Assembly: GCF_017921895.1 (NCBI RefSeq)
Contig: NZ_JAFIDN010000002.1
Location: forward strand, 372,001-436,000
Origin: Natronogracilivirga saccharolytica
Lineage (GTDB): Bacteria > Bacteroidota > Rhodothermia > Balneolales > Natronogracilivirgulaceae
Length of the DNA stretch: 64,000 nucleotides
Direction: 5' to 3'
Shown here piece by piece: positions 52,314 through 57,647 of this stretch (position 1 is the first letter of the stretch; each line of letters opens with the position of its first letter). A program made the translations under genes and the position numbers. The notes beneath the pieces were generated by a model. The model saw nothing but the letters and a program-made list of their open reading frames with translations. It did no database searches and was not told the DNA's origin.

Positions 52314-52636
52314 TATATCTTAAAAATTCAGTCTGATTATTTAAAAAGGTCACCGGCCGTAATAGCCGGGTGGCCTTTTTTTGTTGTTTCTCATCACTCC
52401 GGGGACGTACCGGATAGCTGTGGTTTTGAGTATTTGTAAATTATTATTAATAATGACTTAAAGCATATCACAAATAATAATAGCAGCTATCCATAATGTG
52501 TCCCCGGGTACAGTCATACCAGAGACGAGATAACGGCTTCACTATGCATTGCCATCACATCCTGCTATCATCTTTGTAGAGGGGAGTCAGGGAGACAGGG
52601 AATTCGGGTCACATTGAAACGAATACCGGAGGTTTC
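52314..52636. other. 323-base intergenic region
   Basis: Contains the terminator of the porin-like gene (52346-52383) and then AT-rich sequence with no ORF. The GGAGG at 52629-52633 belongs to the ATG at 52637 of the split surface-protein gene. Confidence 0.6.
52346..52383 (+). terminator. rho-independent terminator after the porin-like gene
   Basis: AGGTCACC-GGC pairs with GCCGGGTGGCCT around a short CGTAATA loop (one mismatch and a one-base bulge), followed by seven T residues. It is 33 bases after the stop codon. Confidence 0.8.
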
Positions 52637-52670
52637 ATGCGTTTGAGTTACATTGTTTTATACATTTTTC

Positions 52671-52677
52671 TTTTTTT
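52671..52677 (+). repeat. T7 homopolymer at the 5' frame break of the surface-protein gene
   Basis: Seven T residues separate the start ATG at 52637 from the main frame that opens at 52678. One more T would join the two frames, putting a signal peptide on the protein. Confidence 0.7.
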
Positions 52678-53976
52678 ATGGGGACGGGCTTTAACACAGT
52701 ACAGGCACAGAGTGATGATCCCTTTATCACCGTCTGGAAAACCGATAATGAGGGTGAATCAGATGATAATGAGATAACCATACCGGGCCAGGGGATCGAT
52801 TATCCGATACAATGGGTGCAGGTCCAAAGAGATCGCCTGCAAATTTGGCGGGAGGTAGACGGAGGTCACTCCGGTAGTGAAACCGGCTCCGGTACTCACA
52901 CCATCGAATTTCCGGAGGCCGGATTCTATATGGTAAGCATTGGCGACGGTTTCAGAAGAATCAATTTTAGTCATGAAAGTGACAGGCTTAAAATTGTGGA
53001 TGTCACCCAGTGGGGCGATATCGAATGGACAACCATGAACAGTGCTTTTCCGGGTGCAGAAAACCTGAGTATTACCGCTACCGATGCGCCTGACCTGTCA
53101 CAGGTTACGGATATGACCCGGATGTTCCGGAACGCTGAATCTTTCAATGGTGACATCGGTCACTGGGATACCGGCAATGTCGAGACCATGAACCGGATGT
53201 TCAAAAGAGCTGACTCGTTCAACCAGGACATCGGCGGATGGTACACAGCCGAAATCACCAGTATGTTTGAGGTTTTCATGGGAGCCGAATCATTTAACGG
53301 AGACATAAGCAATTGGGATACCAGAAATGTCACACACATGAACGAAATGTTTAAAGGTGCCGAAACCTTTGATCAGGATTTTGGTTTTTGGAATACCGGG
53401 CAAGTAGAAACAATGTCGGGAATGTTCTCAGAGGCGGTTTCCTTCGACCAGGATATCGGCAATCTTGATGTCAGGGATGTCCAGGACATGGAAAACATGC
53501 TGGACGGATCGGGTCTCTCGGTCGATAATTACGATAACACACTCGCCGGTTGGGCTCAGCAGCAGGTCCAGCCGGATGTGATCCTGGGTGCAGAAGGACT
53601 TTATTACTGTCATTCGGCAGAAGAGCGGCAACATCTTGTAGATGAATTTGACTGGACCATCAATGATGCTGGGATATCGGTGTATTGTGAAAAACCCGGA
53701 CCAGTCGTGTTGGTTGACCCGGGCGACGAAGATCCTATTGAACCCGATGCCGTAACATTTACCTGGAATGTCCCTCAGGCAGGTGTTGAGCAGTACGGAT
53801 TTGAACTGGCCGGTGACGAGTCTTTTGATGCGTTGGTTATCGACTCGGTGACTACTGATACCACCATCACTCTGAACGATCTGGAGTCGGAATCGATCTA
53901 CTACTGGCGGGTCCGGGGCGAAAACGACACCGGCCGGGGGGGGCTATCTGGTGCGGATGCAGACGGCAGGCTATAG
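52678..53976 (+). CDS. DUF285 25-residue-repeat surface protein, split by homopolymer frameshifts
   Basis: 432 residues in the open frame. Residues 13-125 form a beta-rich head, residues 151-275 five 25-residue DUF285 units (pattern SFNGDIxxWDTxNVxxMxxMF), and about 345-425 a fibronectin-III-like domain ending in YYWRVRGENDTGRGG. The head starts right after VQAQ, a good signal-cleavage site, but the hydrophobic part that should precede it (starting MRLSYIVLYIF) is encoded in another frame from ATG 52637 with GGAGG at 52629-52633. At the 3' end, the G8 tract at 53936-53943 leads to a stop at 53976. With seven G the frame would read YLVRMQTAGYSDVKKITLVK to a stop at 54007, matching the end of T9SS sorting domains. 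Both breaks are at homopolymers. It may be phase-variable, a pseudogene, or an assembly error. Confidence 0.75.
   Translation: MGTGFNTVQAQSDDPFITVWKTDNEGESDDNEITIPGQGIDYPIQWVQVQRDRLQIWREVDGGHSGSETGSGTHTIEFPEAGFYMVSIGDGFRRINFSHESDRLKIVDVTQWGDIEWTTMNSAFPGAENLSITATDAPDLSQVTDMTRMFRNAESFNGDIGHWDTGNVETMNRMFKRADSFNQDIGGWYTAEITSMFEVFMGAESFNGDISNWDTRNVTHMNEMFKGAETFDQDFGFWNTGQVETMSGMFSEAVSFDQDIGNLDVRDVQDMENMLDGSGLSVDNYDNTLAGWAQQQVQPDVILGAEGLYYCHSAEERQHLVDEFDWTINDAGISVYCEKPGPVVLVDPGDEDPIEPDAVTFTWNVPQAGVEQYGFELAGDESFDALVIDSVTTDTTITLNDLESESIYYWRVRGENDTGRGGLSGADADGRL
53936..53943 (+). repeat. G8 homopolymer at the 3' frame break of the surface-protein gene
   Basis: Eight G residues precede the point where the main frame departs from a T9SS-like C-terminal tail. 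Removal of one G, or addition of two, restores the tail. Confidence 0.75.
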
Positions 53977-54007
53977 CGATGTGAAAAAAATAACGCTTGT
54001 TAAGTAG

Positions 54008-54300: not shown

Positions 54301-55188
54301 ATGAAAAAACCACTGTCCACACTTTTTACCTCCCTGTTGCTGTTTGCGTTTACTCCGCATGGAAATGAGGCGGAGATCGAACAAATTGGTGACGGAAATG
54401 AAATCGGGATCGAGCAAATCGGGTCCGGTCATTCCGCGTTCATCACACAGATCGGGAATGATAACGTTGCGGACATAGAACAGATGGGTGCGTCTCATGA
54501 AGCCCGTGTTTCACAGGAAGGCAGTCATGAAGTGCATATTGAGCAGGCTGGTACCGGCAATCAGGCCTTTGTAGAACAGGTTTCCGGTCAGGGTAGCAGT
54601 GGTGGTGACGGGAACTGGCCGGGCAACTCCAGTCCGTTTGCTTTTCAGGGTGGAGGAGCTGCCGGTGACGGATCATCGTTTGCTCACATCGAACAGGTAG
54701 GCGAGCAGAATGTCGCTTCAGTTACTCAGGAGGGTTCACACTTTGCTGATATTTATCAGGATGGAACCGGCAACGCTGTTTCACTGACCCAGGTCGGTGG
54801 CGCTTCGGGCGAAGGTTCGGCAGGAAATCCCGGCAACGCCAATCCGCCGCCCTTTTCCGGCGGCAATTTCCCGGGCAATGCCAATCCGCCTCCATTTTCC
54901 GGAGGAGCTGAAACTTTCGCGGCATATGCAGAGCTTCATCAGGAAGGGCATGATAACCTGATTGACCTCCATCAGGAAGGCAGCCATTATGCCGAAATAA
55001 CTCAGATTGGAGAAGGCAATCAGGCTAATGTGAACCAGTTGTGGGGTGACGGCAATGGCGGGTCCCATGCGGATATTTACCAGCACGGAATGTCCAATAT
55101 GGCAGACGTAACTCAGTATGGAGGCGGCCATTCAGTGATCATCGAGCAGTTCGGAAATGGCAATTCAGCCACTGTGATCCAGCGATAA
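54301..55188 (+). CDS. curlin-repeat (CsgA/B-like) amyloid-type protein
   Basis: 295 residues. A signal peptide (MKKPLSTLFTSLLLFAFTPH) leads into repeats of the curlin pattern x-Q-x-G-x2-N, for instance IEQIGDGNEIGIEQIGSGHS, IEQAGTGNQAFVEQV and ITQIGEGNQANVNQ. About eight to nine repeat blocks occur, interrupted by two Gly/Pro-rich linkers; one has GNANPPPFSGG twice in a row. Curli subunits form extracellular amyloid fibres that bind surfaces and matrix. No csgE, csgF or csgG is in the window, so export may rely on genes elsewhere. A structured 3' region and terminator follow. Confidence 0.88.
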   Translation: MKKPLSTLFTSLLLFAFTPHGNEAEIEQIGDGNEIGIEQIGSGHSAFITQIGNDNVADIEQMGASHEARVSQEGSHEVHIEQAGTGNQAFVEQVSGQGSSGGDGNWPGNSSPFAFQGGGAAGDGSSFAHIEQVGEQNVASVTQEGSHFADIYQDGTGNAVSLTQVGGASGEGSAGNPGNANPPPFSGGNFPGNANPPPFSGGAETFAAYAELHQEGHDNLIDLHQEGSHYAEITQIGEGNQANVNQLWGDGNGGSHADIYQHGMSNMADVTQYGGGHSVIIEQFGNGNSATVIQR

Positions 55189-55532: not shown

Positions 55533-56396
55533 TCAGCTTGTTGTGGTAAGCTTTTCGTAATCATAGCCGTCCGCCTTGCTCATCTCCTGAGCCGTCAGCG
55601 TAAGCAGAATGCCGTAGATTACCTTGGAGCTGACGTCTGCCACGGTGTAGGTGATGTGCCGTCCGACTACAGCAGCTTCACTCAAAGCAGGTTCGAGACC
55701 AAGGTTGAACAGATACGGCATCAGATAGGCGCCGGGGTACAGCATCCATGAGAAAAGGAACAGAGCCCAGATCGTGCTGAGATATTTCTGTACTTTCGGC
55801 GGCGCTCCTTCTTTACCTTCGGTGATTACCTTTTTCATGACCACAAGAATGTGGATGAAGAACAGTGTGGATATAAAGCCCCAGACAAAAAAGAGTGTTG
55901 GGTTGGTGTATTCATAATACTGGCCCACATATCCTGTGAGGATCATCAGTGTTCCTGAAAACCAGAACTGATTTCTTATCGAACTGAACGAGCTTCTGGT
56001 CAGCGAAACGACAAAAAGGATCTGAAACAGCAGCATGGGGACATCGATGAGCCAGTTCAGATAGCGGTAACCATTGTTGAACTGATCGGTTTCTGACCCC
56101 AGGAAGTAGCGTCCGGCATCTGAATCAAAGACAAAGGCACTGGTCCAGTTCTGCTGCTGAATCATCAGCAGAAGGAATGCAGAAACCATAACCACAACTG
56201 AAAGAACCGATGAAATCCGGTATTTCGGAGCTACCGTCTTCATTGTGAGTACGAAATAGAGCAATGCCGCCAGCATAATGGCAAAACCGACAGTCAGGAC
56301 GTGCGCTGACATCTGGTAAGCCATTTCGGTATATCCTGAATCAATGCCCACATAATTTTCGAAAGTGGCGTTGCCCAGGGACATCAAATTATCCAT
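55533..56396 (-). CDS. light-driven sodium-pump rhodopsin (NDQ motif)
   Basis: 287 residues, seven spans. Helix C reads RYLNWLIDVPMLLFQIL: Asn114, Asp118 and Gln125 occupy the BR Asp85/Thr89/Asp96 positions, the NDQ motif of KR2-type sodium pumps. Retinal attaches to Lys258 in ADVSSKVIYG, with Asp254 as counter-ion-side residue and Arg111 in place of BR Arg82. The N-terminus (NATFENYVGI) and His32 also match KR2 (His30). It exports Na+ in light; H+ when Na+ is absent is known of the family. AGGAG (minus strand, 56402-56407) precedes the start. Divergent from the retinal-making blh gene. Confidence 0.97.
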   Translation of the reverse strand: MDNLMSLGNATFENYVGIDSGYTEMAYQMSAHVLTVGFAIMLAALLYFVLTMKTVAPKYRISSVLSVVVMVSAFLLLMIQQQNWTSAFVFDSDAGRYFLGSETDQFNNGYRYLNWLIDVPMLLFQILFVVSLTRSSFSSIRNQFWFSGTLMILTGYVGQYYEYTNPTLFFVWGFISTLFFIHILVVMKKVITEGKEGAPPKVQKYLSTIWALFLFSWMLYPGAYLMPYLFNLGLEPALSEAAVVGRHITYTVADVSSKVIYGILLTLTAQEMSKADGYDYEKLTTTS

Positions 56397-56720: not shown

Positions 56721-57647
56721 ATGAGGCATTCATCCAAAGTGATGGTCTGGTCCGTTGTCCTGGTAACCATTGTCATGATCCTGTTCAGCAGCCTGTTTTC
56801 AGATACGGCAGCAAACTGGAGTCTCTGGATCGTACTTGCATCCGTGGTGCTTGTTGGGATACCGCACGGTGCCATTGACCACATTATGGCCGAAAAAATC
56901 TACGGACTGGACGCATCATGGCGCGGCCGGGCGCTGTTCTATGGTATGTATTTCGGACTGATGATACTTGTTGGCGGACTCTGGCTCATCCAGCCTGTGC
57001 TCGGACTGCTCTTCTTCTTTGCCATTTCCATCTATCACTTCGGCCAGGCTGATATGGAGGATTTTCTTACGCATGAATCAAGTGGATTCACCTGGTACAT
57101 TACCCGCGGACTTTTCATCATCGGACTGATCGTATTCTCTGACACGACGGTGAGCTACCCCATTATGGCAAAGGCAGTGAATACGGATGCTGCAGCGATA
57201 TCACACCTGCTTCCGGATGCCGGTGTCATGTTGTCTTTTGTGACAGTGATCTATGGTTCGGTCTTTTTTTATGCCTGGCTAACCAACAGGCTTCAAAACG
57301 GAATGCGTTTTCTCGCCGACAGTCTGCTTCTGACGGCTCTTTTTTTATTTACCGGCCCAATGATCGGTTTTGCTGTTTATTTTGCACTATGGCACTCTGC
57401 CGGACATGTATTCGAGATGCAGCGTTATCTTGGCGAACAAAACGAACCTATGTCGCTTTTACAGTTCTACAAATCGGCCGCTCCCTTTACGCTCATCTCC
57501 CTTGCCGGCCTCGCACTTCTTGCCGCTGTAAATCATGCATTTGGTATGGAAGAGCAGTTCATTGCTCTCATGTTTATTCTCATCAGCGTACTGACTCTGC
57601 CGCATATGGTCATTGTCGACAAGATGTACGGAGAGGCAGGCAGTTAA
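56721..57647 (+). CDS. blh: Brp/Blh-family beta-carotene 15,15'-dioxygenase
   Basis: 308 residues with about eight spans. It cleaves beta-carotene to two retinal molecules for the rhodopsin. The iron-binding His clusters are visible: LVGIPHGAIDHIMAE, ISIYHFGQADMED, YFALWHSAGHVFEM and TLPHMVIVDKMYG. Size and helix order fit the Blh family. It diverges from the rhodopsin gene with 324 bases between. No carotenoid synthesis genes (crtE/B/I/Y) are in the window, so beta-carotene must come from elsewhere in the genome. Confidence 0.95.
   Translation: MRHSSKVMVWSVVLVTIVMILFSSLFSDTAANWSLWIVLASVVLVGIPHGAIDHIMAEKIYGLDASWRGRALFYGMYFGLMILVGGLWLIQPVLGLLFFFAISIYHFGQADMEDFLTHESSGFTWYITRGLFIIGLIVFSDTTVSYPIMAKAVNTDAAAISHLLPDAGVMLSFVTVIYGSVFFYAWLTNRLQNGMRFLADSLLLTALFLFTGPMIGFAVYFALWHSAGHVFEMQRYLGEQNEPMSLLQFYKSAAPFTLISLAGLALLAAVNHAFGMEEQFIALMFILISVLTLPHMVIVDKMYGEAGS

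Follow-up and report, generated by a model that had tools for sequence, protein, structure and literature searches.

The window, a 64,000-nucleotide stretch of the 3.75-Mb draft genome (49 contigs) of Natronogracilivirga saccharolytica, carries at 52637-54007 a gene of the PARCEL/DUF285 kind that is written in three successive reading frames:

52637-54007, plus strand: the whole locus of three successive frame pieces (sequence and translation)
52637-52670, plus strand: 5' piece, the ATG and the hydrophobic core of a signal peptide (MRLSYIVLYIFL...), off the main frame (translation; aligns with the signal peptide of the relative L005)
52671-52677, plus strand: run of seven T (T7), the likeliest site of the N-terminal frame change (sequence)
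52678-53935, plus strand: main frame, with the VQAQ cleavage region, the FITVW domain, PARCEL/DUF285 repeats and a cut fibronectin-III-like domain (Pfam, TIGR02167, alignments)
53936-53943, plus strand: run of eight G (G8), the join of the truncated fibronectin-like domain to a T9SS tail remnant and putative deletion junction (sequence; both losses meet here)
53944-54007, plus strand: what is left of a T9SS C-terminal domain (YLVRMQTAGYSDVKKITLVK, then a stop), in a frame that differs from that of the main ORF (tail profile of the same genome)

Translated from the ATG at 52637, the first frame reads MRLSYIVLYIFLFLWGRALTQ... and meets a stop at 52777. Between 52618 and 53976 the main ORF is open; it has no in-frame ATG, GTG or TTG before its first ATG at 52678, from which it runs for 432 codons. 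The third frame is open to 54007 and ends in GGYLVRMQTAGYSDVKKITLVK*, with KKITLVK as its last residues; this T9SS-like tail leaves the main frame at the G8 run, which lies at 425936-425943 of contig C2 of the source genome (G000). An earlier note had placed the ATG, T7, main ORF, G8 and tail at these positions and in these frames, in full agreement with the sequence, and its description of a signal peptide and a T9SS-type tail that flank the main ORF and are both off frame is borne out by translation, by the relatives and by the tail profile.

The main-frame protein matches DUF285 (PF03382, E 4.2e-54) and the PARCEL repeat model TIGR02167 (E 6.5e-16), and more weakly fn3 (E 4.3e-4, under the curated cut-off of that Pfam model). 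The match to the repeat model is significant, and the repeats stand without an in-frame export signal, the signal-peptide frame stopping at 52777 and the main frame starting at 52678 at the earliest. A match to the main-frame protein is found in 52 of 60 related genomes, all from outside the source genus, in which repeat proteins of the PARCEL kind are frequent; the genomes of public species that were scanned, a set without the source species, gave distant relatives only. One relative, L005 (G002, contig C370), encodes a signal peptide, PARCEL repeats, two fibronectin-III-like (FN3) domains and a sorting domain in an unbroken frame of 752 codons. A run of ten T lies about 124 nt upstream of the L005 start.

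No PARCEL gene was found beside the porin-like relatives (75-77% identity) or the rhodopsin relatives (78-92%) in the comparison genomes, several of whose contigs are short. The gene is accessory here, since the porin and rhodopsin relatives lack it alongside. Directly downstream of the broken gene lies a gene (54301-55185, plus strand) whose product has five curlin repeats (PF07012, E 1.3e-39); it, too, was not found next to the relatives of the porin-like gene or of the rhodopsin. Further along the window, genes for a microbial rhodopsin (PF01036) and a beta-carotene dioxygenase (PF15461) are neighbours, at 55536-56396 (minus strand) and 56721-57644 (plus strand). Helix C of this rhodopsin reads by eye RYLNWLIDVPMLLFQ, which we take to be the N-D-Q spacing of sodium-pumping rhodopsins.

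At the 5' end, the earlier note had taken a GGAGG motif and the ATG at 52637 as the start of a signal-peptide-like frame. Both elements are present, GGAGG at 52628-52632, and the signal-peptide frame is real. GGAGG itself lends the start weak support, because few starts here carry a Shine-Dalgarno-like motif (about 5 of 24 others checked in the window); Shine-Dalgarno sequences are generally absent in Bacteroidetes (PMC6847099). The relatives have their signal peptide in frame and directly followed by an F(I/V)T(V/I)W(K/Q)TD motif, and the signal peptide of the locus occupies the matching position. The FITVW domain lies near the ORF start in about ten relatives, and the gene studied here is the only one that lacks an in-frame signal peptide, setting aside one internal fragment that comes from a different broken gene. 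The 5' break is thus real in the given sequence, since the signal peptide of the relatives is in frame and that of the locus is in another frame. Translation confirms that the signal-peptide frame has to change at or near T7 to join the main ORF; the change most likely falls at T7, within a possible range of about 52665-52690. The T7 tract is ordinary for the source genome: the window holds 23 T7 and three T8 runs, and T runs are to be expected where Phe and Leu codons build a hydrophobic core. The G105 relative has a T7 and a T6 run in its signal-peptide stretch, and is in frame there.

At the 3' end, a profile built from 34 T9SS tails of the source genome scores the tail at 32.7 bits, against -2.5 for the best of 3877 frame ends outside T9SS C-terminal domains (CTDs). 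The sequence of the last two T9SS strands (GxYL.R... and KK.TLVK) is present. About 100 T9SS CTDs were detected in the source genome, and those inspected are complete, with about 72 residues and the motif NYPNPFNP; the tail at the locus keeps only the last 20-22 or so of these residues, and none of the 100 TIGR04183 matches listed in the genome falls at the locus, which holds no complete in-frame domain of that length. The likeness to a T9SS tail claimed in the earlier note therefore stands for these last residues only, fused as they are to a cut fibronectin-like domain. The FN3 domains of the same genome and of the relatives continue through WSxxWSFTT before the linker and CTD, and at the locus the homology ends at G8, with the last strand absent. 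The loss of this strand and the loss of about 50 CTD residues coincide at G8. Aligned with L005, the locus lacks 88 codons if the join lies in the last FN3 domain, and 184 if it lies in the first.

A deletion is the simplest explanation of the 3' break. No change of tract length at G8 is needed, because a deletion alone shifts the frame two times in three, and a change of one G would not restore a normal secretion domain, because the deletion removed the end of the FN3 domain and the first 50 or so T9SS residues. The reading of G8 as a switch is not supported on this point: G8 is not the site of a simple slip, and about 88 (possibly 184) codons are missing. The G8 run may be older than the join or may have been made by it. 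The only repeat flanking the deletion is a partial one of 16 nt, too little to be informative. A tail swapped in from another CTD gene was considered and rejected, the DNA of the junction having no close second copy in the source genome.

The locus is, we think, probably a recently inactivated and decaying PARCEL/DUF285 gene for a T9SS cargo protein and not a switch. Set beside intact homologs, it has two independent disabling lesions, a 5' frame break and a 3' deletion with a change of frame, which favours the pseudogene that the earlier note had named as an alternative. The ancestral protein would have had a Sec signal peptide ahead of PARCEL repeats, one or more fibronectin-III-like domains and, at its C terminus, a T9SS sorting domain. 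For the order of the lesions and the mechanism of the deletion, we infer that a deletion of about 264 nt (about 552 nt if there were two FN3 domains, as in L005) came first; it would have joined the middle of the last-strand region of the FN3 domain to the last 20 or so codons of the sorting domain, with G8 and a change of frame at the join. The second lesion would be the loss of one base, probably in the T run of the signal peptide, by which the start codon and the export signal came to lie off the main frame, and we infer that no functional protein is now made. The state of the main frame speaks against decay: over its 1.26 kb it has no stop and no further frameshift, and its codon-position composition is ordinary, so the decay must be recent.

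Broken genes of this kind occur elsewhere in the group. A related PARCEL gene (L121, G105 contig C4, 230500-239500, minus strand) is broken in three places into overlapping frames, none of the breaks lying at a long homopolymer. In the source genome, a sorting domain on contig C9 (L083, about 1990-2145; contig position about 30.3-30.5 kb) is cut midway (...NEHQQADDIY*) with no obvious homopolymer, and contig C10 holds a sorting-domain relic with two internal stops (L077, about 27.2-27.4 kb), beside an ORF that we take by eye to be an IS110-type transposase. Together, these broken sorting domains and the broken PARCEL gene appear from their sequences to show plain decay.

An error of sequencing or assembly, by which the true T count (and perhaps the G count, or an unassembled segment) differs, leaving the gene intact or no more than truncated, is unlikely but has to be taken seriously. 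The assembly is a draft, the N-terminal break amounts to one base in a homopolymer, and a T7 error combined with a genuine deletion at the 3' end makes a plausible mixed case. Set against this, the other long ORFs of the window with A/T runs of at least 7 or G/C runs of at least 6 show no comparable break, and because these homopolymer-bearing ORFs read through unbroken, two breaks by error alone in one gene of 1.4 kb are unlikely. Nor can an error in base count account for 88 or more missing codons, and repeat collapse is improbable, the CTD DNA being too diverse and the junction region having no close second copy.

The earlier note had put forward independent changes of tract length at the two ends as a switch. 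We consider phase variation, in which length changes at T7 and/or G8 turn export and tail on and off, very improbable. Poly-G and other homopolymer tracts near the 5' end of mycoplasma PARCEL lipoprotein genes have been proposed as phase variable (PMC2996958), L005 has an in-frame G7 run in its signal-peptide region (one case in about ten relatives), and in Porphyromonas gingivalis surface display required the last 22 CTD residues, which defined the smallest region needed to display a GFP fusion (PMC3120885); a review calls the fragment sufficient (PMC5445135). The tail remnant would thus not certainly be dead if put in frame. Against such a switch, G8 lies on a deletion junction, and shifting it yields just a 22-residue tail; T7 runs are common, and the signal-peptide region of most relatives has no such tract. 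A whole protein results from neither tract length; even the alternative G frame lacks about 50 CTD residues and the last FN3 strand. The idea of independent switches is not supported, given a C-terminal lesion that is a deletion (about 88 or 184 codons), a T7 tract that is ordinary and the want of a G/C-tract switch family. The narrower version, in which the G tract would toggle the 22-residue sorting tail and the T tract the signal peptide to give cytoplasmic, periplasmic and surface forms of the PARCEL protein, is less probable still.

A genome-wide family of poly-G switches was rejected after the other 44 G/C tracts of at least 7 in the genome had been read: most of these fall inside ORFs that are unbroken, between genes or in CRISPR DNA, and, with L126 and L131 left aside, none makes a comparable break or holds a comparable switch position in a surface gene. 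The unbroken ORFs include what we take by eye to be NuoF-like and FlhA-like proteins. The two tracts left aside, on contigs C1 (L126) and C2 (L131), are G7 runs 0 and 19 codons before the stop of an ORF of about 320-360 codons. The start of contig C6 (L069, about 157-1910) holds a CRISPR-like array with the repeat GTTGTGGTTTGATTCAAAGATGGGATGACCGATATT and spacers of about 30 nt, one of which contains a G8 tract.

A shorter functional protein of 432 residues, starting at the ATG at 52678 and having neither export signal nor T9SS tail, is also hard to credit. The main frame is open and begins with ATG, and PARCEL ORFs lacking a targeting signal are known in other genomes (PMC2996958), but it begins with the latter half of a signal peptide (FNTVQAQ) and ends in frame-shifted CTD sequence. 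Least probable of all is programmed -1 frameshifting as the link between signal peptide and main frame, for although the frame from 52637 presents a slippery heptamer T_TTT_TTA at T7 and a -1 shift there gives a well-formed signal peptide ending in VQAQ, a stimulating RNA structure was looked for and rejected (the downstream fold is not beyond chance, z -0.21), the signal peptides of the relatives are in frame and none uses such a site, and the 3' end would remain broken.

Read as decay, the locus illustrates the way in which an accessory gene for a surface protein is lost, and it shows that a deletion with its end in a homopolymer can mimic a slipped-strand switch when judged by sequence alone. 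A true switch here would make this a contingency locus that acts on T9SS export, of which the open-access literature searched gave no example.

Among the closest known systems is the full-length relative L005, which has the same domain order and is collinear with all three pieces of the locus from signal peptide to tail; unlike the locus, its frame is unbroken, and its own G7 run is in frame. As a T9SS type A cargo (TIGR04183), the protein is recognisable in its last 20-22 or so residues, which match the sorting domains of its own genome and end in KK.TLVK, whereas the first 50 or so residues, NYPNPFNP among them, are absent, and what remains does not lie in the main frame. With the PARCEL/DUF285 surface proteins (PF03382, TIGR02167; PMC2996958) the protein shares the tandem repeats of about 25 residues (W.T..V..M..MF...FN.DI) of a secreted surface protein, but here the export signal and the secretion tail are both out of frame. 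In the mycoplasma PARCEL family (PMC2996958), the proposed switch tracts lie in the 5' region of lipoprotein genes, whereas the G tract described here is the putative junction of a deletion.
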